Below are positions 7,837 to 64,000 of a DNA stretch of 64,000 bases, one piece after another (within the stretch, counting starts at the first letter, position 1; every line of letters begins with the position of its first letter). Made by a program: the position numbers and the translations under genes. Source of the DNA: Nitrosomonas sp. Nm132 (GTDB lineage: Bacteria; Pseudomonadota; Gammaproteobacteria; Burkholderiales; Nitrosomonadaceae); NCBI RefSeq assembly GCF_900100485.1, contig NZ_FNDH01000001.1, positions 135,681-199,680 on the forward strand. Direction: 5' to 3'. Below the pieces are notes generated by a model. That model was not told the origin of the DNA. It was given only the letters and a program-made list of their open reading frames with translations, and made no database searches.

Positions 7837-9300
7837 ATGCTTGCAACACTTTTACAAAACAACTCACCTCTCGATGAATCTATTAAAACCACACACATTC
7901 TGGTGCTCCTTCCCAAGCTAGAAAAACTGCCCAGCAAAATTAATCTGCCCGGCGAATATGCACTCAACGCGTTGCTGCTTCGGCGTGAGATGCAGGTATA
8001 CCAGATTAGTGAGACACCTGTCTGCGCCAATTTACAAAATGGTGCGCTTTGTACCTGGGCAATGGTGGATTTAAATAAATCCATATTTGAGCAGCACACT
8101 TATGTTCGCAAAGCCTTGCACTTATTATTGGAAGAAGGGCCTGCCCAGCTCCATGTGTCGGTTCATGGCAATGCGCACCAAAAACAGATCTTGGCAAAAT
8201 TGGCAGTATACGTCTCCTGGATCAATGGCGCAGTTTTACCGGTACGTAAACTTAAGCCTGACAGAAAACCACTCGAGTCGATCATTCTCCATGGGCACGA
8301 AGACCCCGATCATTTCTTACCGTTACGCGCACAAGCAGAAGGAAATCTGCTCGCCCGCGGATTGACTGGATTGCCACCCAATGAGCTAACGCCCAAAACC
8401 TATCGGGAGCAAATCGAAAAACTCGCAATCAATGAAAATTGGAAACATGAAGAATATGATTTATCGATATTGCGGAAACTGGGTGCGGGTGCATTTGTTG
8501 CGGTAGCGCAAGGTAGTGACACGGAAGATGCCGCTATCGTGCATTTACAGCGGCATACCGGCAAAAAACCGAGTAAAACAATCGCACTCGTCGGTAAAGG
8601 TATTTGCTTCGATACCGGCGGGCATAATTTAAAACCCGCACGCTTCATGCATGGCATGCATGAAGACATGAACGGCTCGGCGGTCGCTCTGGGCGTTTTA
8701 TTGGCGGCTACTCGGGCTGATCTACCCGTCAATATCGATTGCTGGCTAGCAATTGCACAAAATCATATCAGCCCGCGCGCTTACAAGCAGAATGATGTCA
8801 TTACTGCATTAAATGGCACAACGATAGAAATTATCCATACGGATGCGGAAGGCCGCCTGGTACTGGCTGATACCCTGACTTTGGCAGAAAAACAAAAGCC
8901 TGACCTGATTATCGATTTTGCAACCTTAACAGGCAGTCTTTATACCGCACTGGGATCGCGTTATAGCGGTATCTTCAGTAATCGCGAGCATCTGATCCAG
9001 AAGGCGCTGACTGTTGGAAAATCAAGTGGTGAACGCGTTTGTGCTTTTCCTATGGATACTGATTACGAAGTCGACCTTGAAAGCAAAATTGCTGATATCA
9101 AACAATGCCTGCTGGATAGCGACTATGATCATATTCTTGCAGCCCGTTTCCTCAGTCAATTTGTCAATGAGGTGCCCTGGCTGCACATGGATCTCTCCGC
9201 ATGCAATCATAAAGGCGGTCTCGGTGCTGTTGGGACGGATATTACGGGTTTTGGCGTTGCCTGGGCGATGGCGTTCCTCCAAAAATTTCTTACAAGCTGA
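7837..9300 (+). CDS. M17 family leucyl aminopeptidase-like protein
   Basis: A cytosolic di-zinc aminopeptidase of the M17 family. The metal-binding lysine and aspartate lie in VGKGICFDTGG, further ligands in MHEDMNGSA, and the signature is HTDAEGRLVLAD, where PepA has NTDAEGRL. The frame is open from 7777, but an AGGGA stands before the ATG at 7837 and there is no ribosome site at 7777, so 7837 is preferred (487 residues; 507 from the upstream start). The N-terminal half is divergent from PepA. It probably releases N-terminal residues from peptides; the Asn to His change in the signature is unusual. It is transcribed alone. Confidence 0.85.
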   Translation: MLATLLQNNSPLDESIKTTHILVLLPKLEKLPSKINLPGEYALNALLLRREMQVYQISETPVCANLQNGALCTWAMVDLNKSIFEQHTYVRKALHLLLEEGPAQLHVSVHGNAHQKQILAKLAVYVSWINGAVLPVRKLKPDRKPLESIILHGHEDPDHFLPLRAQAEGNLLARGLTGLPPNELTPKTYREQIEKLAINENWKHEEYDLSILRKLGAGAFVAVAQGSDTEDAAIVHLQRHTGKKPSKTIALVGKGICFDTGGHNLKPARFMHGMHEDMNGSAVALGVLLAATRADLPVNIDCWLAIAQNHISPRAYKQNDVITALNGTTIEIIHTDAEGRLVLADTLTLAEKQKPDLIIDFATLTGSLYTALGSRYSGIFSNREHLIQKALTVGKSSGERVCAFPMDTDYEVDLESKIADIKQCLLDSDYDHILAARFLSQFVNEVPWLHMDLSACNHKGGLGAVGTDITGFGVAWAMAFLQKFLTS

Positions 9301-9321
9301 TTGATAAAATTGACCTTACTT

Positions 9322-10701
9322 CTAAGAATTTCCAGCTAAACGGATTCTATTTGAGCTACTCAATCTGAGGGTAAGTTCCTGACCAATGGAAAGGCGCTCG
9401 CTATTACCATTCCATGATTTGATTTCTTTTATATCAATACCATATCGTTTGGCTATATCGTCTAAAGTATCACCCTTCTTGACTATATAGATAATTGAGT
9501 CATTCAATAACGAATTAGTGTTATGCTGATTGTTATCTTGTGCTAGATAATCATTTTCCCTGGTTCTATTTTTGCTACGTGGTACTAATAAAGTTTGTCT
9601 CTTTTTCAGGGTATCATTTATGGAAATACCATTGATCTCGGCAAGCTCAGCCACATTAATCGCGTATCTACTGGATAAGTCCTCGATTGTTTCTCCTTCC
9701 TTTACCTTATAAACACGCCATGAAACAAGCGATTCATCGTAATTCTCAAGATTGGCTATGAAGGTTTTCGCCTTATTGACCGGTAACAAAAGCGTACGGG
9801 GCGAGTCATCAATTCTGATAATAGGCCTATGGTATGCCGGGTTAAGTGCGGTGAATTCTTTTTCTGGCACCCCTGCAAGCTCGGCTGCCAGTTTCACATC
9901 GATATGTTGAGTAATTTCAACTTGCTTGAAATAAGGTCGATTAGGAAGAGGTTTAAGCTTGACACCGAAATTTTCTGGATTAGCAATAATATTCCTTACG
10001 GCAATGAGTTTCGCAACATGATTTCTCGTTTCATTGGGTAATTCAAGGTCACGAAAGTTAATACCATCATTCTCCTTATGATTTTCATCTATGGATCTTT
10101 TTAGCACGCCCTCCCCACAGTTGTATGCAGCCAACGTCAATTTCCAATCACCAAACATTTTATAAAGCTTCTGCAGATAGTCCAAGGCAGCTCGTGTCGC
10201 CGCAACAACATCGCGACGCTCATCATACCACCAGTTTTGTTCAAGGCCGAATGCTTTACCGGTAGAAGGAATAAGCTGCCAAAGACCCGAAGCATGGCGG
10301 TGAGAATAGGCTGCTGGATCAAACGCGCTTTCTACAATAGGAATAAGCGCAATCTCAGTGGGCATGCCACGCCGCTCCACTTCTTCCACAATATGAAACA
10401 AATAGCGCCTGCTTCGCTCAACGATGCGATCAATATATTTTTGATGGCGCGTAAAATGGTTTTCATTATGGCGTACTTCCTGGCTGCGCATACCAGCAAC
10501 GGCAAAACCACTGCGTATACGTGCCCATAAATCATCCAAATGCTTATCTGAACTGGCAGAATCCCTCTTTATTACTGAGGTAGAGCGGTTTTTATTATTT
10601 TCTAAAGTTCCCTGCGCTTCTGCCGCAGTTGGTAAGAAAGCCAATATCATACTGGCTATAAGTACTAATATCAGATTTGGTATGTTTTTTGTTTCTAGCA
10701 T
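9322..10701 (-). CDS. mltD: Membrane-bound lytic murein transglycosylase D
   Basis: A 459-residue exported protein with an N-terminal signal peptide (hydrophobic NLILVLIASMILAFLPTAAEA), an SLT transglycosylase domain at about residues 105-230 with the catalytic Glu in PIVESAFDPAAYS and the AAYNCGEG motif, and two LysM peptidoglycan-binding repeats near residues 330-375 and 405-450. It cleaves glycan strands to 1,6-anhydromuropeptides in the periplasm. The signal has no clear lipobox, unlike E. coli MltD. It is convergent with the M17 peptidase gene and the ends are only 21 bases apart. Confidence 0.92.
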   Translation of the reverse strand: MLETKNIPNLILVLIASMILAFLPTAAEAQGTLENNKNRSTSVIKRDSASSDKHLDDLWARIRSGFAVAGMRSQEVRHNENHFTRHQKYIDRIVERSRRYLFHIVEEVERRGMPTEIALIPIVESAFDPAAYSHRHASGLWQLIPSTGKAFGLEQNWWYDERRDVVAATRAALDYLQKLYKMFGDWKLTLAAYNCGEGVLKRSIDENHKENDGINFRDLELPNETRNHVAKLIAVRNIIANPENFGVKLKPLPNRPYFKQVEITQHIDVKLAAELAGVPEKEFTALNPAYHRPIIRIDDSPRTLLLPVNKAKTFIANLENYDESLVSWRVYKVKEGETIEDLSSRYAINVAELAEINGISINDTLKKRQTLLVPRSKNRTRENDYLAQDNNQHNTNSLLNDSIIYIVKKGDTLDDIAKRYGIDIKEIKSWNGNSERLSIGQELTLRLSSSNRIRLAGNS

Positions 10702-12197: not shown

Positions 12198-15062
12198 TCA
12201 TTGGCATGATTCACATCCAGGATCATCAATCGCGCAATACTTGATTTCCGCTGTCATTTGTTGAGCGTTTGCCGCGGTTACACCGCCACTGGCCGGCACG
12301 GCATTGAGTGCACCGGTATATACCGTAGACTTTTCTGCTGTCGTTGCGCCTAATGAGCGCAAATAGTAGGTTGTCTTGAGCCCCCGCAGCCAAGCAAGCT
12401 TATAAAGCTCATCGAGCTTCTTTCCAGAAACACCGGCCATATAAATATTGAGGGATTGCGCCTGATCGATCCATTTCTGCCGTCTCGCTGCCGCCTCAAC
12501 CAACCAGCGAGGATCCATTTCGAATGCGGTCGCATACATGTCCCGCATGCTTGCAGGTATTCTGTCTATTTTGCCGATCGCACCATCGTAATACTTGAGA
12601 TCAGCAATCATCACCTCGTCCCATAGATCGCGTTGCTTCAGATCATTGACCAGCCATTTATTGGCGATGGTAAACTCTCCAGACAAATTGGATTTAACGT
12701 AAAGATTCTGATAAGTGGGCTCGATGCTCGCTGAAATGCCGACGATATTTGAAATCGTCGCAGTAGGCGCAATGGCTAGACAATTTGAATTTCTCATGCC
12801 GTGCTTCTTGATACGCGCACGAAGTTTATCCCACTGAAAAGCCGCTGAAGTATCCACCTCAACAAAATTACCGCGCTCTTCACGTAATAGCTCGAGGGTA
12901 TCCTGCGGCAAAATCCCGCGATCCCATAAACTGCCACGATAGGAAGCGTAACAGCCACGCTCTTCCGCTAATTCGGTGGAAGACCAATAAGCATAGTACG
13001 CAATAGCCTCCATTGATCGATCTGCAAACTCCACCGCTTCTTCTGAAGAATAGGGAATACCCAGCTTATATAAACAGTCCTGGAATCCCATGATGCCAAG
13101 CCCAACTGGCCGGTGCCTCAGATTAGCATTACGCGCTTTAGCAACCGCATAGAAATTAATATCGATGACGTTATCAAGCATCCGCATCGCCGTGCTGATC
13201 GTACGCTTGAGCTTACCCATATCAAGTTTGCCATCGTTGACGTGCGCCGGCAAATTGATTGATCCCAGATTGCAGACAGCGATCTCTTGTTCATTGGTAT
13301 TCAAGGTAATCTCTGTACAGAGATTGGAACTATGCACCACCCCGACATGATTCTGAGGTGAGCGTATGTTGCAGGGATCCTTGAAGGTGATCCATGGATG
13401 TCCTGTCTCGAACAGCATGGTCAGCATTTTCCGCCACAATTGCTGAGCAGGAATCTTCCTATGTAGGGCAATTTCACCCTCCGCCGCTTTTTTCTCGTAT
13501 GTGAGATAAGCTTGCTCAAATACCTTGCCATACTTGTCATGGAGATCCGGCACATCAGAGGGCGAAAACAGTGTCCAGTCCTCCCCCTCCATTACCCGTT
13601 TCATGAACAAATCGGGCACCCAGATCGCCGTATTCATATCATGCGTACGACGACGATCATCACCGGTATTTTTGCGAAGTTCAAGAAACTCCTCGACATC
13701 AAGGTGCCAGCACTCCAGATAAGCGCATACCGCTCCCTTACGTTTACCGCCCTGATTAACCGCTACAGCGGTGTCAGACACTACTTTGAGGAAAGGAACG
13801 ACGCCTTGTGATTTGCCATTGGTTCCCTTGATACGTGATCCCATCGCCCGGACGGGTGTCCAGTCATTGCCCAGCCCACCTGCAAACTTTGAAAGCAAGG
13901 CGTTTTCCTTAATCGCTTCATAGATACTATCCAAACTATCCGACACGGTGGTCAGATAGCACGAAGACAGCTGCGGACGGCACGTACCCGAATTGAATAA
14001 TGTCGGCGTCGAGCTCATGAAATCAAATTTGGATAATACCTGATAGAACTCTATGGTACGCGCCTCACGATCAATTTCATTGAGCGCCAGCCCCATGGCC
14101 ACCCGCATGAAAAAGGCCTGCGGCAGCTCGATACGTTTTTCGTTGACATGGAGAAAATAACGATCATAGAGGGTCTGCAAACCAAGATAACCAAACTGCA
14201 TATCACGATCTGCATCCAGCACCTCTGCCAAACGGCTCAAGTCAAACTGGGCCAGACGCTCATCCAATAATCCAGCCTCGATACCTCGCTTGATAAAGCC
14301 TGGAAAATATTCCGCATAACGAGATTTCATCTCGTTATGCGTCACATCCTCTCCCAGCACCTCAAAGCGGATAGTATGTAGCAACAGTCTCGCCGTAACG
14401 TAACTATATGCCGGGTCTTTTTCTATCAATGAACGCGCCGATAGAATAATCGATTTCCTTACCTCTTCCGCCGGCACTCCATCGTATAAATCTTTTAGCG
14501 TTGATTTAAGAATCAATGCGCTATTCACCGCCTCGCCAAGATCGATACAAGCCGCATCCACCAACGCTGCCAGTCGCGCAACATCCAGAGGAATTCTGTG
14601 GCCATTTTCTACCACATGTAAAACGTGGACCTGTTTCTCGGCAGTCAGCTTTTCTTGCTGCTTTGCCCGTTCACGCGCTCGCTCCTCGCGATACAGTACA
14701 TAGGAGCGAGCCACATCGTGTTCGCCCGAACGCATCAACGCCAGTTCTACCTGATCCTGAATATCCTCGATATGAAATGTGCCCCCTTCGGGCTGGCGTC
14801 GCGTCAGCGCGCCCACCACATCCTGAGTCAAATGCGCCACCACCTCACGTACCCGTGCAGACGCAGCGCCTTGCCCGCCTTCCACCGCGATAAAGGCTTT
14901 GGTCATCGCAACAGAAATCTTGCTGGGCTCAAATGCAACCACCGCACCGTTACGACGAATCACTTTATATTGAGCATATTGCGAGCCGGGTGAAACTGGA
15001 ATTTCTGGAAAACCACTTTGAAGGACAGGGTTTAAGTTTGCACTGTCGGCCGTAAGTTGCAT
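12198..15062 (-). CDS. nrdA: Class Ia ribonucleotide reductase alpha subunit
   Basis: A 954-residue catalytic subunit. An ATP-cone allosteric domain occupies about residues 30-125 (VIRRNGAVVAFEPSKISVAMTKAF). The catalytic core shows NSGTCRPQLSSCYL and, for the radical site, SNLCTEITLNTNEQEIAVCNLGSINL. The C-terminal DPGCESCQ gives the redox pair that is re-reduced by thioredoxin or glutaredoxin. It reduces ribonucleoside diphosphates. The length is greater than E. coli NrdA (761) because of extra N-terminal sequence, as in many proteobacterial homologues. It is the first gene of nrdA-nrdB, and a strong palindrome stands 44 bases upstream. Confidence 0.96.
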   Translation of the reverse strand: MQLTADSANLNPVLQSGFPEIPVSPGSQYAQYKVIRRNGAVVAFEPSKISVAMTKAFIAVEGGQGAASARVREVVAHLTQDVVGALTRRQPEGGTFHIEDIQDQVELALMRSGEHDVARSYVLYREERARERAKQQEKLTAEKQVHVLHVVENGHRIPLDVARLAALVDAACIDLGEAVNSALILKSTLKDLYDGVPAEEVRKSIILSARSLIEKDPAYSYVTARLLLHTIRFEVLGEDVTHNEMKSRYAEYFPGFIKRGIEAGLLDERLAQFDLSRLAEVLDADRDMQFGYLGLQTLYDRYFLHVNEKRIELPQAFFMRVAMGLALNEIDREARTIEFYQVLSKFDFMSSTPTLFNSGTCRPQLSSCYLTTVSDSLDSIYEAIKENALLSKFAGGLGNDWTPVRAMGSRIKGTNGKSQGVVPFLKVVSDTAVAVNQGGKRKGAVCAYLECWHLDVEEFLELRKNTGDDRRRTHDMNTAIWVPDLFMKRVMEGEDWTLFSPSDVPDLHDKYGKVFEQAYLTYEKKAAEGEIALHRKIPAQQLWRKMLTMLFETGHPWITFKDPCNIRSPQNHVGVVHSSNLCTEITLNTNEQEIAVCNLGSINLPAHVNDGKLDMGKLKRTISTAMRMLDNVIDINFYAVAKARNANLRHRPVGLGIMGFQDCLYKLGIPYSSEEAVEFADRSMEAIAYYAYWSSTELAEERGCYASYRGSLWDRGILPQDTLELLREERGNFVEVDTSAAFQWDKLRARIKKHGMRNSNCLAIAPTATISNIVGISASIEPTYQNLYVKSNLSGEFTIANKWLVNDLKQRDLWDEVMIADLKYYDGAIGKIDRIPASMRDMYATAFEMDPRWLVEAAARRQKWIDQAQSLNIYMAGVSGKKLDELYKLAWLRGLKTTYYLRSLGATTAEKSTVYTGALNAVPASGGVTAANAQQMTAEIKYCAIDDPGCESCQ

Positions 15063-56394: not shown

Positions 56395-57777
56395 TTACAC
56401 CACCGCTTTGACCATATCCTCTACAACCTTCTTGGCATCACCAAACACCATCATTGTCTTGTCCATGTAGAATAAGTCATTGTCAAGACCAGCATAGCCA
56501 GCAGCCATACTACGCTTGACAACTATCACCGTGCGGGCCTTGTGCGCCTCCAGAATAGGCATCCCATAGATAGGACTGCCTGGAACATTTGCAGCTGGAT
56601 TGACCACGTCATTTGCACCTAAAACAAGCACTACATCAGTATTAGGAAAATCGCTGTTAATTTCTTCCATCTCCAAAACCTGCTCATAGGGTATTTCGGC
56701 TTCAGCAAGTAGCACATTCATATGCCCCGGCATACGACCCGCTACGGGGTGAATGGCAAAACGAACATTGACACCTTTTCGATGCAGTACTTCTGCAAGC
56801 TCTTTGACCGAATGTTGTGCACGAGCTACGGCCAAGCCATAACCTGGAATAATAATAACGCTATCTGCATTACCCATCAAAAATGCTGCGTCGTCTGCAC
56901 TACCGCTTCGATAGGTTTTCTGTGTTCCATCACTCGCGCCTTGGGCACCGCCTTCGCTACCAAAACCACCCAGTATGACAGAGAGAAAGGGACGATTCAT
57001 GGCCTTGCACATGATATATGACAGAATTGCCCCCGAGCTGCCCACCAACGAGCCAGCAATAATGAGCATTGGGTTGCCAAGTGAAAAGCCGATACCTGCT
57101 GCTGCCCAGCCAGAATAGGAATTCAGCATGGAAATCACTACCGGCATGTCAGCTCCCCCGATAGGAATGATAATGAGGAATCCGAGCAGAAATGCGATAG
57201 CTGTCATGGCAATAAATGCTGTCCAATTGGTTATTTCGCTGAAAAAGAACCATAAGCCAAAACCAATCATAACGATTGCCAGCAGCAAATTGATCATGTG
57301 CTGTCCAGTGAACACAACGGGAGCTCCGCTCATGCGACCAGACAACTTGAGGAAGGCAATGACTGAGCCAGACCAGGTCATGGCACCAATAAACGTTCCC
57401 AAAAACAATTCCAGCTTGCTACCAGCTGGCAATACTTCAGACAGGCCGAATGAAACAGGATTATTGACGGCAGCAATGGCTATAAATACCGCAGCCAAAC
57501 CAACCAATGAGTGCATGAAAGCAACCAATTCCGGCATGGCTGTCATCTGAACTCGTTGCGCCACAATAGAGCCTACAATCGCACCTATAGCAATACACCC
57601 CAGTATCAATGCCCAATTCTCGGTAATGGTCAGAGTAGTGCCAACGGCAATCGTCATTCCAACCATTCCAAAGAAATTACCGCGCCGAGCGGAAAGAGGT
57701 GAACTAAGCCCTTTCAGGGCCAAAATGAAAAAAACCGCCGCAACCAGATAAGCGAGAGCAATCAAATCAGCAGACAT
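56395..57777 (-). CDS. pntB: NAD(P) transhydrogenase subunit beta
   Basis: A 460-residue subunit with eight to nine membrane helices (residues 1-255) and a C-terminal NADP(H)-binding domain III (SVIIIPGYGLAVARAQHSVKELAEVL, GRMPGHMNVLLAEAEIPYE, VLVLGANDVVNPAA). It couples hydride transfer from NADH to NADP with proton entry. The start directly follows the pntA2 stop (TAAATG), so translation is coupled. Confidence 0.97.
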   Translation of the reverse strand: MSADLIALAYLVAAVFFILALKGLSSPLSARRGNFFGMVGMTIAVGTTLTITENWALILGCIAIGAIVGSIVAQRVQMTAMPELVAFMHSLVGLAAVFIAIAAVNNPVSFGLSEVLPAGSKLELFLGTFIGAMTWSGSVIAFLKLSGRMSGAPVVFTGQHMINLLLAIVMIGFGLWFFFSEITNWTAFIAMTAIAFLLGFLIIIPIGGADMPVVISMLNSYSGWAAAGIGFSLGNPMLIIAGSLVGSSGAILSYIMCKAMNRPFLSVILGGFGSEGGAQGASDGTQKTYRSGSADDAAFLMGNADSVIIIPGYGLAVARAQHSVKELAEVLHRKGVNVRFAIHPVAGRMPGHMNVLLAEAEIPYEQVLEMEEINSDFPNTDVVLVLGANDVVNPAANVPGSPIYGMPILEAHKARTVIVVKRSMAAGYAGLDNDLFYMDKTMMVFGDAKKVVEDMVKAVV

Positions 57778-58086
57778 TTAAGCGCTTCCTTTTTTATCTT
57801 TTTTTCTAAACATTTCTAACATACGCTGGGTGACGAGAAATCCACCGAATACGTTGATGGAAGCAAGGATTACTGCTGCAGCCCCTAACCAGGCGCCCCA
57901 ATCCGATTCAGCTGGGCCTGCAGCCAACATTGCGCCTACTAAAATAATACTTGAAATGGCATTAGTCACTGACATCAGCGGTGTATGCAAAGCTGGTGTC
58001 ACATTCCATACCACGTGATAGCCAACAAAAACCGCCAATACGAATACAGTAAGATGAATTATCGTTGGATCAATTTCACCAATCAT
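57778..58086 (-). CDS. pntAb: NAD(P) transhydrogenase subunit alpha part 2
   Basis: A 102-residue subunit with three to four membrane helices ([58 protein letters not shown]). It is the membrane part of alpha, separate from the NAD-binding part as in Rhodospirillum. The frame is open to 58107, but AAGAGGAACAAAC precedes the ATG at 58086 and MIGEIDP is the family-like start. Confidence 0.94.
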
Positions 58087-58159
58087 GTTTGTTCCTCTTG
58101 AATTCATTAACTTTTATAGAATCTGAAGCGCACACTAAAGCAACTCTTCACTTTCTGTT

Positions 58160-59293
58160 TTATATTTTTTTGATCACTTCTCCACCCGAACAAACCAATG
58201 TTCCGGCAATAATCTCATCCTCCCAGTTTATTTTGAGTTCGCCATTATTTGAATCAAGCATCAAATTAAGGAAATTCATAAGATTACGTGCATAGAGTGC
58301 GCTTGCATCTGCAGCCACTAAACCAGGAAGATTAGCAATACCAATGAGATGAACACCATGTTTTACCACGGTTTTATTCAACTCAGACAGGGGACAGTTC
58401 CCACCCGCTTCCACCGCCATATCTACAATTACCGAGCCAGGCTTCATCGCCTGAACCGTTTCTTCTCGGATCAAAACTGGGGCCGGACGCCCAGGTATCA
58501 ATGCAGTTGTAATGACAATATCCGCTGCGGCAGCTCTTGCATGAACTAATTCTCCTTGCCGGCGTTTGTAATCCTCCGACATTTCAGTTGCATAGCCGCC
58601 AGCTGTTTCAGCCTTCGCTTTTTCTTCCTCAGTCAGGGGAACCTCCACAAATTTTGCACCAAGGCTTTCGACCTGCTCTTTAACTGCCGGACGGACATCA
58701 AATGCTTCAATCACTGCGCCCAGCCTTTTGGCTGTCGCAATCGCCTGCAAACCTGCTACCCCCGCTCCCAGCACTAATACTCTAGCAGCTTTAACCGTAC
58801 CAGCTGCTGTCATCAGCATGGGAAAGAATTTCTGATAAACATTAGCGGCCATAATGACCGCCTTATATCCGCCAATATTTGCCTGAGAAGACAGCACATC
58901 CATACTTTGTGCACGAGAGATACGCGGCAATTTCTCCATGGAAAATGCAGTCAGGCCATGTCTAGCGAGTACCTCGATCCCTTCCATCTGATGAGGTGAC
59001 AGCAAGCCAATCAAAACTGCATCCTTGCGTATCAAAGCTAGCTCATCCGTTCCTGGACCGCGCACTTTAAGTACAATCTGTGATTGACTATATAATTGTG
59101 AAACATCATCAACGATAGTTGCACCCGCTTCTTGGTATGCAGCATCAGGAATACTCGCACCAGCACCTGCGCCAGACTGAACAAGAACAGTATGAAAACC
59201 CTTGGCAGTATATTTCTTGACCGTTTCCGGCGTAGCTGCTACACGCGTTTCTCCCGCATAAATTTCTGCAGGTATGCCTATGTGCATCGACAA
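58160..59293 (-). CDS. pntAa: NAD(P) transhydrogenase subunit alpha part 1
   Basis: A 377-residue soluble NAD(H)-binding domain I of the transhydrogenase. It begins MHIGIPAEIYAGETRVAATPETV and shows the dinucleotide motif VLGAGVAGLQAIATAKRLGAVIEAFDVRPAVKEQVESLGAKFVEV, typical of the AlaDH/PNT family. It is the first gene of the pntA1-pntA2-pntB set, preceded by 196 bases and then the large Nfn-like flavoprotein gene on the same strand. Confidence 0.96.
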   Translation of the reverse strand: MSMHIGIPAEIYAGETRVAATPETVKKYTAKGFHTVLVQSGAGAGASIPDAAYQEAGATIVDDVSQLYSQSQIVLKVRGPGTDELALIRKDAVLIGLLSPHQMEGIEVLARHGLTAFSMEKLPRISRAQSMDVLSSQANIGGYKAVIMAANVYQKFFPMLMTAAGTVKAARVLVLGAGVAGLQAIATAKRLGAVIEAFDVRPAVKEQVESLGAKFVEVPLTEEEKAKAETAGGYATEMSEDYKRRQGELVHARAAAADIVITTALIPGRPAPVLIREETVQAMKPGSVIVDMAVEAGGNCPLSELNKTVVKHGVHLIGIANLPGLVAADASALYARNLMNFLNLMLDSNNGELKINWEDEIIAGTLVCSGGEVIKKI

Positions 59294-59489: not shown

Positions 59490-62400
59490 TCAATTTATAT
59501 TTTTCAGACAACGATTGATCCATTGACTCGTCAATTTCTCCTGTGCACTGTTTTGTCGCAATCGCGACGCAAGACTACCAAAATCGACCCAATCCAACGG
59601 CTGATCCTGATTAAAGCACGAAAAGACATAAGTAATCTCTCCGGTTTTAGGATCTTTATGTGGTTGCAAGCACTGGGCGCAGATTTCCTTCATCATGCAT
59701 TGCATCGGTGAATTAATGGATCCTATGGCAAAGTGATTTTCCTTCAAGTAAGGCTGAAGCTGGTGATGACGCGCAAAGCCCACTGCAGCCATCATCCGAT
59801 CAGAACCAATCGCGATGATGCGATCAGCGTCTGCTAAGGGTATCGGTTGAACACCGAGTGTACCGCTGCCATAGGCAACCATGGCCTGAACAATATTCCC
59901 GACAAAACTAAAATCACCCGGCCTGGAGGGCTCAAACCCAGGCGCTTCATCACAACACCACACTACTGTATCTGCCGCTGACTCAATTTCAGCTACTTTG
60001 TAACGATCAACAAGTTTTTTGTAGCCTGCAAAATATAAAACGCGGGATCCTGCTGCGCGCGCCGCAGCGCCAATAGAAAATAATACCGCATTCCCGAGTC
60101 CCCCTCCTACCAGCACAACAGTCTCATCGTGAAAAATCTCGGTAGGTGTTCCAGTAGGCCCCATCAGCACAACTGGATCTTCAGGTTTGAGTAACGTGCA
60201 TAAATTTGCAGACCCCCCCATCTCCAGTGCGATCAGCGAGACGCGCCCATTTGAAATATCTACCGATGCTCCTGTCAACGCTATACCTTCCATTGCTAAT
60301 CGGGTATCCTCGATTGTCGTAGCAAGTGTTGCAAAATTCTGGAAGCGGTAAAACTGCCCAGGTTGAAAGTGTTTGGCAGCCATGGGAGCTTGCACAATTA
60401 TTTCAATAATATTAGGTGTCAGCCTCTCCACCTTATGAACAATAGGCTTCAATTGATGATTCATTTCAGCAAAAAACTGCGAGACTGATTGAGTCGAAGA
60501 AGGCGTAATATGATCAAGCACCCGACTGACAATTGGATATCCCTGTTTAGCGCTAGCCATGGCTTTTACCACATTTCCTGAATATGACGGATGTAAATCG
60601 CCAAAGAAGCTGATAAAACGCCCATCTTCACAACGACTCAGCAATACTGCTGGTGTTTCTGGCTTAGGATTACCTTTCGGCAGACTCACAGGATTTCCCT
60701 GCTCATCACAGGCAGAAAAATAACGCCCGCTCAGCTTGAAATATTTCTCATCTTCTCTGGCAAGCACAGTATTCGGATGGGTTCCTGCAGCGACCAGAAT
60801 TGCCCGGGCTGGTAACTCAACTTCTCGAGTTTTTTGCCATTGTCCTGCTTCATCCAATGCTTGGACAGAAAATCTGATCGATTTTATATGCTCCCACTCG
60901 TCTACATCCACCCGCAGAGGTGTCAGTCCTTCAGCAAACCAAATACCTTCCTCCAGCGCTTTCTCGACTTCCTCATGGTTCAGCGTATAAGAAGGACTCT
61001 CTATCAAGCGCTTACGATAAGCTATCGTAGCCCCCCCCCACGATTGCAACAGCTTCAGAATATCAGGCTCACGACCTTCCTGTACCGCCTGAGCACGCTC
61101 TGCACGAATCGCTCGAGCATGTGTTAAAAATTCTTCTGCAATTTCCCGCTCCTCTTCGTCCCAAGAATGACGAACCTTAGCTTCACCCTGCTCTGAAACA
61201 AGTATTTCGTAGCGCTTCAGGAATTTCTCGACTTGTACCGGATAATAAGCCAGCGCTTCGGTAGCTGTATCAATTGCAGTCAGCCCGCCACCAATTACGA
61301 CAGCAGGTAAACGTAGCTGCATGTTGGCAATAGAATCAGCCTGTGCTGCACCTGATAACTGGAGTGCCATCAAAAAATCAGAAGCAGCGCGCACTCCTCG
61401 TGCTAAACCATTCGGTAAATCAAGAATTGTTGGACGCCCTGCACCAGCAGCCAATGCGATGTGATCAAAGCCCAAAGCCAATGCATCATCCGCCGTCAAA
61501 GTGCCGCCGAAGCGCACACTACCAAAGAGCGCAAACTCTGCTCGCCGCTCCAGCAAGAGACGGATTAATTTAAGAAAATTCTTATCCCAACGTACGGTAA
61601 TACCGTATTCCGCCACGCCACCAAAACCTCCCGCCATGCGTTCATTCAAATCTACGCGCAACATGTCCGTATCTCGAATAGCAGAAAAGGGAACGCGCTG
61701 ACCATGTAGATTGACACCGGAAATCTCTGCTGGCAACGGCTCAATTTTGAGACCATCAATACCCACCACAGTATGGCCATCATTCATTAAATGGTGTGCC
61801 AAGGTATATCCGGCGGGTCCCATGCCTACAACCAATATTTTCTTGCCTGTCGATGGCTTAGGTAAGGGCCTATGTAAATCAAGTGGATTCCAGCGTGTAA
61901 GCAGGCTGTATATCTCAAATCCCCAGGGCAATTCAAGCACATCTTTGAGCGTACGGGTTTCTGCTTGAGGAATATCGACCGGATCCTGCTTCTGATATAT
62001 GCAGGATTTCATGCAGTCATTACAGATACGATGCCCCGTCCCTGCGCACATGGGATTATCCAGTATAATCATCGCCAGACTGCCGACCGCTACACCCTGC
62101 GACTTGAGCTTGTGAAATTCCGAGATTCGCTCTTCCAGCGGACAGCCTGCCAGCAAAGCACCCAACTCGCTTTTCTTGAAAGAAGGTGGTTCTTCTGGAT
62201 TTCTAGCTTTTAGTATAAATCCTTTTGAGCAGGAATCCTTTCCCTGTTCATGGCACCAGATACAATAATTGGTTTCATCCAATGCACCCACTAAATCAGT
62301 TCCTTCATCAGTCAATGAAAAACCTTCTCGGTGGCGCAAATGATCGAGACGATGAACGGTAAATCCTGCATGGTCATCAGTCGACAGTGACAATAAGTGA

Positions 62401-63026
62401 AAATAATCGAGTTTTGCTGGAGACTTGAATAACACTCCCTGCTGGGTGTGTGTTTGTCCCGAAGTTGTGCGTAATGCCCATGCAGCATAGTGCAGCGCAT
62501 CATTCAAACGTGCTGTATTGCTGGCTTCATCCTCCATCCACTGCGCGACATGGGTTGCAAACACTAACTCTGAAAAAGGTTCGCCAAATTCAGCTTCCAG
62601 TTTTTGTTCTAAGGTAATGCCATCTATCGTTTGCAATACTTCATCGCTTACCTTAGTTTTTGCACGACGCTGCACAAATTGCCGCTTACAAAAATAAAGT
62701 GGGGCAAGTTCATGATGGCGTGCTGCAAGCGCACGCACCTGATTCTCAATACCAAAGAGCTGTGCAATAAAATCTTCCAACCAGGGAGCAAGCTCAATCA
62801 GAAAAGCAGATTCATCTTTAGGCGCCAACTCATCTGGATACCGGCGGGCATGATCCAGACGGGCACGTAATCCAGCCTCCCCCTCCCGCAGAAAATCTAG
62901 AAATGCCTCATCCAGCTTTACCAAACCATCACGGTTATATAAATCTGCAAAAGTCACGCCAAATTTAAGGCTGGGAGAAACAACCTCTGTTGAGAGACTG
63001 TTAAGCGTTGATGCTGAATTTGTCAT
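59490..63026 (-). CDS. Fused GltD/NfnB-like and PyrK/NfnA-like Fe-S flavoprotein
   Basis: A 1178-residue protein. Residues 1-240 are helical and unassigned. C255, C258, C266, C295 and C327, C335, C338, C342 form iron-sulfur binding sets like those of GltD. FAD binding begins at GMGPAG (about 401) and a second dinucleotide site at GGGLTA (about 579). Residues 855-1178 resemble the PyrK/ferredoxin-NADP reductase family: GQFYRF for flavin, VGGGLGNA (about 973) for NAD, and C1110, C1116, C1119, C1137 for a [2Fe-2S] cluster. NfnA and NfnB are separate proteins in the electron-bifurcating Nfn transhydrogenase. The substrates here are unknown. It lies upstream of pntAB on the same strand. Confidence 0.8.
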   Translation of the reverse strand: MTNSASTLNSLSTEVVSPSLKFGVTFADLYNRDGLVKLDEAFLDFLREGEAGLRARLDHARRYPDELAPKDESAFLIELAPWLEDFIAQLFGIENQVRALAARHHELAPLYFCKRQFVQRRAKTKVSDEVLQTIDGITLEQKLEAEFGEPFSELVFATHVAQWMEDEASNTARLNDALHYAAWALRTTSGQTHTQQGVLFKSPAKLDYFHLLSLSTDDHAGFTVHRLDHLRHREGFSLTDEGTDLVGALDETNYCIWCHEQGKDSCSKGFILKARNPEEPPSFKKSELGALLAGCPLEERISEFHKLKSQGVAVGSLAMIILDNPMCAGTGHRICNDCMKSCIYQKQDPVDIPQAETRTLKDVLELPWGFEIYSLLTRWNPLDLHRPLPKPSTGKKILVVGMGPAGYTLAHHLMNDGHTVVGIDGLKIEPLPAEISGVNLHGQRVPFSAIRDTDMLRVDLNERMAGGFGGVAEYGITVRWDKNFLKLIRLLLERRAEFALFGSVRFGGTLTADDALALGFDHIALAAGAGRPTILDLPNGLARGVRAASDFLMALQLSGAAQADSIANMQLRLPAVVIGGGLTAIDTATEALAYYPVQVEKFLKRYEILVSEQGEAKVRHSWDEEEREIAEEFLTHARAIRAERAQAVQEGREPDILKLLQSWGGATIAYRKRLIESPSYTLNHEEVEKALEEGIWFAEGLTPLRVDVDEWEHIKSIRFSVQALDEAGQWQKTREVELPARAILVAAGTHPNTVLAREDEKYFKLSGRYFSACDEQGNPVSLPKGNPKPETPAVLLSRCEDGRFISFFGDLHPSYSGNVVKAMASAKQGYPIVSRVLDHITPSSTQSVSQFFAEMNHQLKPIVHKVERLTPNIIEIIVQAPMAAKHFQPGQFYRFQNFATLATTIEDTRLAMEGIALTGASVDISNGRVSLIALEMGGSANLCTLLKPEDPVVLMGPTGTPTEIFHDETVVLVGGGLGNAVLFSIGAAARAAGSRVLYFAGYKKLVDRYKVAEIESAADTVVWCCDEAPGFEPSRPGDFSFVGNIVQAMVAYGSGTLGVQPIPLADADRIIAIGSDRMMAAVGFARHHQLQPYLKENHFAIGSINSPMQCMMKEICAQCLQPHKDPKTGEITYVFSCFNQDQPLDWVDFGSLASRLRQNSAQEKLTSQWINRCLKNIN

Positions 63027-63155: not shown

Positions 63156-64000
63156 CTAACAGATCATACCGGCTGCAACCGTATTATTACTTGTCTCATC
63201 AATCATAATAAAACTGCCCGTAGCGCGATTGGATGCATAGTCATCGCACACCAATGGCTGCTGGACTTTCATCACAACTCGCGCAATATCATTCATTTTC
63301 AAGGAATCTGTCGTCTCATGATTTAGCGTATTGACGTCTACACGATAATCAATCTGGCTAACCACTCCCTTAACCATTCGAGTCGTGTGCTTAACGATAT
63401 ATTTGCGTCTAGGATCAAGTGACTGTTCTGACAACCAGCACAGCATTGCTGTAAACTCTTTCTTGATCTTTGGTTGCTCTTCAGTTTTTACCAGCATGTC
63501 TCCCCGGGAGATATCTAGATGATCTTCGATAGTCAGTGTGACAGATTGCGGTGCGAAGGCATCATCAAAGGAATCTTGATACAGGAGAATTTCCTTGATA
63601 CGTGAGGTTAATCCTGAAGGTAGAATCGTCACGGCATCACCTACACGAATAGAACCTGATTCAACGCGTCCCATATATCCCCGAAAATCGTGCAATGCTT
63701 CCGTTTGCGGACGACAAACCCATTGCACTGGAAAACGGAAATCATCCGTATTGATATCGTGTTCAATATCAATATCTTCCAGTAAATCTATCAATGCCCT
63801 ACCTTCATACCAAGCAAGCTTGTCACCCCTCTCCACCACCATATCCCCGACTAAAGCAGACATAGGAATATATTCGATATTACGCAAGCGAAGTCCTTGC
63901 GCAAAAGTAGCAAAATCATTGCAGATGCGCTCAAACACCTCACGTGAATAATCCACCAGATCCATTTTATTAACTGCTACGACCAAATGGGGAATACCTA
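63156..64000 (-). CDS. cysN: Sulfate adenylyltransferase subunit 1, 3' part
   Basis: The C-terminal part of CysN, cut by the window end; the frame continues through 64000 as GIPHLVVAVN. The GTPase NKMD motif is seen early (VAVNKMDLVDYS), followed by elongation-factor-like beta-barrel domains with RGDMLVKTEEQP, WLSEQSLDPRRKYIVKHTTRMVKGVV and ATGSFIMID. With CysD it makes adenylyl sulfate from sulfate and ATP at the cost of GTP. It ends 130 bases before the large flavoprotein gene on the same strand. Confidence 0.95.
   Translation of the reverse strand, partial: GIPHLVVAVNKMDLVDYSREVFERICNDFATFAQGLRLRNIEYIPMSALVGDMVVERGDKLAWYEGRALIDLLEDIDIEHDINTDDFRFPVQWVCRPQTEALHDFRGYMGRVESGSIRVGDAVTILPSGLTSRIKEILLYQDSFDDAFAPQSVTLTIEDHLDISRGDMLVKTEEQPKIKKEFTAMLCWLSEQSLDPRRKYIVKHTTRMVKGVVSQIDYRVDVNTLNHETTDSLKMNDIARVVMKVQQPLVCDDYASNRATGSFIMIDETSNNTVAAGMIC

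Follow-up and report, generated by a model that had tools for sequence, protein, structure and literature searches.

On the reverse strand of a 64,000-nucleotide stretch of the genome of Nitrosomonas sp. Nm132 (assembly GCF_900100485.1, contig NZ_FNDH01000001.1, positions 135,681 to 199,680; the window), positions 59490..63026 encode a single-chain flavoprotein of 1178 amino acids, which joins a GltD/NfnB-like half to a PyrK/NfnA-like half and which we call NFL. Its gene stands between sulfate-assimilation genes and the genes of the proton-translocating transhydrogenase PntAB, which suggests that NFL supplies strongly reducing electrons for sulfide formation. Judging from its fold, cluster ligands, gene order and pattern of occurrence, we consider it somewhat probable that NFL is an NADPH-oxidizing flavo-iron-sulfur ferredoxin reductase, doing a job like that of Fpr or CysJ, and that its main customer in the genus is assimilatory sulfite reductase. 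To our knowledge, it is not settled where nitrifiers, and other aerobes that lack Fpr or CysJ, obtain the low-potential electrons needed by sulfite reductase and further users of ferredoxin.

Architecture and conservation of NFL

The GltD/NfnB-like half of NFL spans residues 202 to 839 (60510..62423; all window coordinates given here are on the reverse strand). In fold comparison it matched Pyrococcus furiosus NfnI-L at 2.4 Å over 439 residues, and by fold and ligands it appears to hold what NfnB holds: flavin adenine dinucleotide (FAD), an NADP(H) domain, and two [4Fe-4S] clusters. The cluster ligand region (residues 228 to 370, 61917..62345) contains C255, C258, C266, C295, C335, C338, and C342 together with E356, all invariant in the 41 rows of our alignment. 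In a separate check over 38 diverse members of the family, the seven cysteines, E356 and R479 were kept in every one. R479 (61590..61592), also found in 41/41 rows, aligns with Arg187 of Thermotoga maritima NfnB, which bonds N5 of the bifurcating FAD (PMC6405883), whereas Escherichia coli GltD has lysine there.

The NfnA/PyrK-like half (residues 853 to 1173) likewise has all the parts of NfnA: a FAD barrel (residues 863 to 965, 60132..60440), an NAD(P)-binding domain (residues 966 to 1095, 59742..60131) whose glycine motif is nearly invariant in the 41 rows, and a [2Fe-2S] region (residues 1096 to 1148, 59583..59741) with the four invariant cysteines C1110, C1116, C1119, and C1137. In front of both halves is an all-helical domain (residues ~20 to 195, 62442..62969), for which a fold search of the PDB gave no match, and a helical insertion relative to Nfn occupies residues ~597 to 664 (61035..61238). 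The original prediction, made from the letters of the window alone, had described the two fused halves with their two Fe-S sets and [2Fe-2S] cysteine set, some 240 extra N-terminal residues, an insertion near residues 600 to 700, and pntA1-pntA2-pntB as downstream neighbors; comparison with Nfn and GltD found both halves present, and the fold, ligands, and gene order bear out that description for Nm132.

NFL thus shares much with the NfnAB structures (P. furiosus NfnI, 5jfc/5jca; T. maritima, 4ylf): both halves by fold, the two [4Fe-4S] ligand sets with their conserved Glu, the Arg at N5 of the NfnB FAD, the Tyr-Arg of the NADP site, and the NfnA-type FAD barrel, NAD domain, and C-terminal [2Fe-2S] region. 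It differs in being one chain in the order B-A, with an extra N-terminal domain and insertions, both the one mentioned above and one between C266 and C295. The NfnB motifs RCx2Cx4Cx3CPV and GRVCPQExQCx3Cx13Gx2ER (PMC6405883) are replaced by the spacings Cx2Cx7Cx28CP and Cx2Cx3C, with none of the seven Cys missing and the Glu retained, and in place of the NfnA FAD strand ERxPxT NFL has EGIALT (residues 913 to 918), with Thr or Ser at the last position in 38/38 members. The [2Fe-2S] cluster of Nfn is described as Asp-ligated, with a high potential of +80 mV and the motif DGTGMCGxCRx10CV (PMC6405883); in NFL this Asp ligand is replaced by Cys1110 in 41/41 rows. Compared by sequence, therefore, the NADPH/[4Fe-4S] side of NFL is Nfn-like, and its high-potential side is different.

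The NAD domain was reduced or gone in 10 of the 38 members: in seven, from small genomes, roughly half of it was filled, and in three, which also lacked all four [2Fe-2S] cysteines, it was missing. These three homologs (L230, L231, and L232, from genomes G612, G618, and G572; L-numbers denote fetched loci and G-numbers genomes, with group labels taken partly from record titles) are 955 to 1000 amino acids long and stop after the FAD barrel. No remnant of the NAD domain or [2Fe-2S] region was found downstream of them, and each has similar-looking small genes upstream. The portion common to 38/38 members is the NADPH/FAD half with two [4Fe-4S] clusters, which favors a core reaction from NADPH to a one-electron carrier. 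In full-length members such as NFL of Nm132 the NAD branch would be used in addition. Because of the partly or wholly missing NAD domains and the Cys in place of Asp, we do not regard an NADH branch as constant in the family, and, for the same reasons and because some relatives have lost even the [2Fe-2S] cluster, NFL is not classed here as an Nfn. Of the original proposal that the protein redistributes electrons among NADH, NADPH, and ferredoxin, the ferredoxin partner gained support from adjacent ferredoxin genes and the inverse occurrence of Fpr described below, and the NADH branch lost ground through these two features.

Gene neighborhood of NFL

The 3' part of cysN lies upstream of NFL at 63156..63998, on the same strand, and the gene continues past the end of the window. 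There (locus L120) follow the rest of cysN, cysD, cysH, and cysI (L120, 9863-11956), here a sulfite/nitrite reductase-type gene, all on the reverse strand, and then a divergent LysR gene of the cysB type. The cys genes, the main context of NFL, thus lie mostly beyond the stretch on which the original prediction was based. Downstream are pntA1 (58160..59293; the NAD-binding part of the transhydrogenase), pntA2 (57778..58107; the membrane part), and pntB (56395..57777). The gaps measure 129 bp between cysN and NFL and 196 bp between NFL and pntA1; neither contains a terminator-like site, a weak negative result, as such sites are no more frequent in this region than in shuffled sequences.

An NFL match was found in 59 of 61 same-genus genomes, that of Nm132 included. 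The other two, G022 and G040, also lack pntB. Among 80 fetched NFL loci, 16 belong to Nitrosomonadaceae by title, and cys genes lie upstream of NFL in 15 of them; the sixteenth covers just 1.4 kb upstream. As cysN was seen within 1.5 kb of NFL in just 6/21 same-genus loci (1.5-kb flanks), wide flanks were fetched for 20 further same-genus genomes. In these, cysI was upstream on the same strand in 20/20, ending 2.0 to 7.6 kb before NFL, with cysH in 19/20 and cysN in 11/20, at 1.9 to 4.0 kb. In the remaining nine wide stretches cysN was not found, though cysI was present, and the activation step there may use other genes. In the same nine (L247, L248, L251, L252, L254, L255, L256, L258, and L259), cysD was missing or gave a weak match. 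The close cysN-NFL spacing of Nm132 is therefore not general in the genus, and the constant neighbor is cysI. The sulfite reductase itself has been swapped within Nitrosomonadaceae (L040 to L057, L083) with NFL retained, and comes in three unlike types: a long form of ~700 amino acids as in Nm132, a 580-amino-acid form with DUF934, and a CysI/CysJ pair in L057.

In locus L045, from a Nitrosomonas, cysN and NFL are separated by a response-regulator-like gene (8699-9910), and NFL and pntA1 by the gene of a small protein that on inspection resembles Hpt (13528-13938); gene families like these occur again in L048 and L055.

The pnt genes are a more local neighbor. Of the 14 Nitrosomonadaceae loci with enough downstream sequence, 10 have pntA1-pntB <1 kb behind NFL and another has them at 4.2 kb; pntB is within 10 kb of NFL in 16/21 same-genus genomes holding both genes. 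pntA1-B follow NFL also in Nitrotoga (L067) and in L072, but outside the genus pntB was near NFL in 0/25 genomes with both, being either on a different contig or at a distance of 37 kb or more. The pnt neighborhood noted in the original prediction is in this sense a local one.

A second, separate cys context was found in the order of genome G163, where NFL occurs in 79/131 genomes (E ≤ 1e-100). This order is probably Rickettsiales, on grounds that include an Alphaproteobacteria record (L107) inside the clade and a Neorickettsia gene name. In 20 wide-flank regions, mostly from the best matches and larger genomes, cysNC lay within ~1 kb upstream of NFL in 17, usually with cysD, cysH, cysG, and cysI. 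This operon differs from that of Nitrosomonadaceae and ends in the NFL gene; its CysH, CysD, and CysN are 33 to 44% identical to the Nm132 products, and its CysN is fused to adenosine 5'-phosphosulfate kinase. Further cys-linked NFL loci are L107, L137, and L143, and in L137 sulfite reductase, CysG-N, CysH, CysD, and CysNC were confirmed by Pfam. Elsewhere in the tree, in L079, a 722-amino-acid NIR_SIR gene ends 124 bp upstream of NFL. In a tree of 77 rows, the cys-linked NFLs form two groups, one of Nitrosomonadaceae, nested within the betaproteobacterial NFLs, and one made up of the alphaproteobacterial order. The cys label needs three changes on this tree, and the starred branches force three; the pattern is compatible with two gains and one loss in the small-genome branch.

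Ferredoxin genes, of the 7Fe type by motif, lie 32 to 79 bp upstream of NFL on the same strand in L076, L094, L100, L121 (G062), and L124 (G070). Counting duplicates, 204 locus records hold 500 bp or more of upstream sequence, and these are 5 of them. All five are betaproteobacterial; four share one seven-row tree group with three rows lacking the ferredoxin, and the fifth is unplaced. Two ferredoxin-type genes (77 and 108 amino acids) also occur a few kilobases upstream in L063 (4479-6030) and L077 (4644-6197), apparently in another cluster. Near NFL in L079, L081, L087, L099, L112, and L119, which are Azospirillum and other Rhodospirillales-type loci, there is repeatedly a gene for a membrane protein that on inspection resembles heme A synthase; it is divergent from NFL in L079 and L099. 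By record titles, the family as a whole is found in Betaproteobacteria, Alphaproteobacteria, and Acidobacteriota.

Occurrence of NFL and of other reductases

We searched 77 genomes with E. coli Fpr as the query, counting E < 1e-20 as a strong match, and found Fpr in 4/49 genomes with NFL versus 18/28 without. In an even sample of the phylum, where Fpr was present in 225/398 genomes, the counts were 1/17 with NFL and 224/381 without (Fisher p = 1.1e-5), and in the order of Nm132, with one genome per family and its genus left out, 3/14 and 18/26 (p = 0.007). In the G163 order Fpr was found in 3/131 genomes and in 0/79 of those with NFL, which says little, since it is nearly absent there anyway.

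The same Fpr query gave no match at E ≤ 1e-5 in the Nm132 genome, NFL included, and CysJ gave none there at E ≤ 1e-20. CysJ was above the cutoff in 3/49 genomes with NFL and 1/28 without. NFL was also considered as a CysJ (flavodoxin plus FNR domain, TIGR01931) and gives no such match. The Nm132 genome encodes 16 Pyr_redox_2 proteins, NFL included; eight of the others, compared with NCBIfam, comprised one thioredoxin reductase, one NorW-like and one HcaD-like protein, and none was GltD-like. Its single PF00175 protein is BenC/MmoC-like.

Relation to known systems

The best family model for NFL by far is NCBIfam NF005128/PRK06567, matched over residues 21 to 737 at 793.6 bits. As this lies under the curated cutoff of 1072 bits, NFL is kin and not an accepted member; three scanned relatives also fall under the cutoff, and the relative in L036 matches PRK06567 end to end at 631 bits. 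Unlike this family model, NFL has a full NAD domain. The name of NF005128, "putative bifunctional glutamate synthase subunit beta/2-polyprenylphenol hydroxylase," is an annotation and not a tested function. Pfam accession PF27156 is on each of 120 NFL relatives listed.

Fused Nfn homologs are treated in a review as "Pattern C" and presented there as uncharacterized, with the NfnB part first and the NfnA part and [2Fe-2S] cluster at the C terminus, as in NFL (PMC6405883). They are ~950 amino acids long (757 + ~200) against 1178 for NFL, and are probably PRK12779 (944 amino acids), to which NFL scores 86 bits against a cutoff of 1519. The family is thus already in databases, and fused homologs are already in that review's account, where they come without a tested function. 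In the literature searched we found neither PRK06567 nor a characterized member of the NFL family, nor a paper on its cys, ferredoxin, or Fpr patterns. The earlier remark that no described enzyme of this layout was known agrees with this as to characterized members, but "Pattern C" and NF005128/PRK06567 exist.

GltD and dihydropyrimidine dehydrogenase share with NFL the module of FAD, NADPH, and two [4Fe-4S] clusters; no GltB-like neighbor of NFL was seen in the 130 loci examined, and E. coli GltD has Lys at the R479 position. The role proposed here, passing electrons from NADPH on to ferredoxin or to sulfite reductase, would be that of Fpr and CysJ, from which NFL differs in overall architecture; NFL and Fpr mostly do not occur in the same genomes. 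A comparable route has been demonstrated in Ruegeria pomeroyi, in which a ferredoxin-dependent sulfite reductase (SPO2634) is fed by ferredoxin, a ferredoxin-NADP reductase (SPO2637), and NADPH (PMC13188885); SPO2637 seems to lie near SPO2634, going by the locus-tag numbers only.

Proposed function and alternatives

In the proposed mechanism, NADPH would reduce the FAD in the GltD/NfnB-like half by hydride transfer; the fold of this half and its conserved R479 and R671 are consistent with this substrate. The electrons would leave singly through the two [4Fe-4S] clusters, for which the ligands are conserved, to ferredoxin, the acceptor to which gene neighbors and occurrence point, and reduced ferredoxin would serve the sulfite reductase CysI. 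In full-length members the second half, with its [2Fe-2S] cluster, FAD, and NAD domain, may pass the other electron to NAD+ or let electrons from NADH in. PntAB, encoded next door in nitrifiers, would be the supplier of NADPH, and the two may be coupled. PntAB draws on the proton motive force to keep NADPH highly reduced.

Several observations weigh against this assignment. Besides the sparse cysN in short flanks noted above, NFL often does not directly follow the cys genes in the genus, with 0.5 to 4 kb of other sequence between. In 20 more regions of the G163 order, mostly from small genomes, no cys gene was found in the 1.2- to 2.2-kb flank, and at most other betaproteobacterial loci NFL has neither a cys nor a ferredoxin neighbor. 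Shared descent makes the rows of the Fpr counts non-independent; with families as the unit, the phylum sample gives 1/9 (binomial p ~0.005). Genomes G075, G081, G095, and G108 carry both NFL and Fpr. A real CysJ occurs alongside NFL in the same-genus genomes G001, G036, and G045 and in locus L057, and G018, G213, and G238, which have NFL, show CysJ-like matches below the cutoff, so that NFL is not simply a stand-in for CysJ. In Nm132 itself the HcaD-like protein, of the NADH-ferredoxin reductase type, is a possible other ferredoxin reductase, the NorW-like protein is present as well, and a thioredoxin-reductase-like ferredoxin-NADP reductase was looked for in this genome only. Two arginines bind the NADP phosphate in Nfn (PMC6405883); R671, which by alignment to Nfn sits in the Tyr-Arg motif, is kept in 37/38 members, and position 673 is variable. 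If NFL served ferredoxin in general, its retention alongside CysJ, and at loci with no cys gene in view, would be accounted for.

NFL could instead be a true bifurcating transhydrogenase of the Nfn type (2 NADPH + NAD+ + 2 oxidized ferredoxin to NADH + 2 reduced ferredoxin, or running the other way). PntAB would then form NADPH from NADH, and the two enzymes together would use the proton motive force to drive the reduction of ferredoxin. All Nfn cofactor sites in one chain, the Arg that bonds N5, the near-invariant glycine motif, and the nearby pnt genes in the genus, Nitrotoga, and L072 agree with this, but the Asp that gives the Nfn [2Fe-2S] cluster its high potential is Cys throughout, the NAD domain has been reduced or lost in some relatives, and the [2Fe-2S] cysteines in a few, and pntB is away from NFL in all 25 genomes outside the genus that have both genes; we consider this reading rather unlikely. 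Bifurcation by full-length NFL may still occur, as R479 and the NAD domain would indicate; Cys1110 and the shortened relatives argue against its being needed. Combining these elements, NFL and PntAB might form a soluble-plus-membrane substitute for Rnf in aerobic nitrifiers, in which proton motive force makes NADPH and NFL bifurcates NADPH to ferredoxin and NAD+, so that the proton motive force would pay for the ferredoxin used in sulfite reduction; we hold this to be unlikely.

Clustering with CysI in separate lineages, the sulfite reductase gene directly upstream in L079, and an N-terminal domain without a fold match would fit NFL as a CysJ of a new type, a reductase that serves CysI directly without ferredoxin and might dock by way of that domain. 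As NFL stays with three types of sulfite reductase in Nitrosomonadaceae, CysIJ included, persists at loci with no cys gene in the vicinity of NFL in the stretch fetched, and has a ferredoxin gene as neighbor in five loci, this seems distinctly improbable to us. A reading in which NFL reduces something else, be it a quinone, a thiol, or an unknown partner, and in which the cys and ferredoxin links are secondary, would suit the wide spread of mostly unlinked genes and their retention in small genomes; it is very doubtful given that the cys link recurs in separate clades and the ferredoxin link in another. An electron-transfer (beta) part of glutamate synthase is extremely improbable: the family name NF005128 and a Neorickettsia genome paper, which assigns a like-named gene to glutamate metabolism (PMC5481527), point that way, but no GltB-like gene was found in the 130 loci around NFL genes (whole genomes were not searched), the chain has no synthase domain, and R479 is Lys in E. 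coli GltD. The glutamine-to-glutamate step drawn for Neorickettsia, as given in that paper, is built on the beta-subunit name; the fold offers no ground for such an activity.

A family present in many proteobacteria bears a misleading glutamate-synthase name. For NFL, the cys clusters, the ferredoxin neighbors, and the inverse occurrence of Fpr together offer a direct, testable assignment as an NADPH-oxidizing ferredoxin reductase. Its hosts include aerobic nitrifiers, and if NFL bifurcates, flavin-based bifurcation would extend to aerobic chemolithoautotrophs; if NFL and PntAB did replace Rnf, bifurcation would have a part in the biosynthesis of these organisms.

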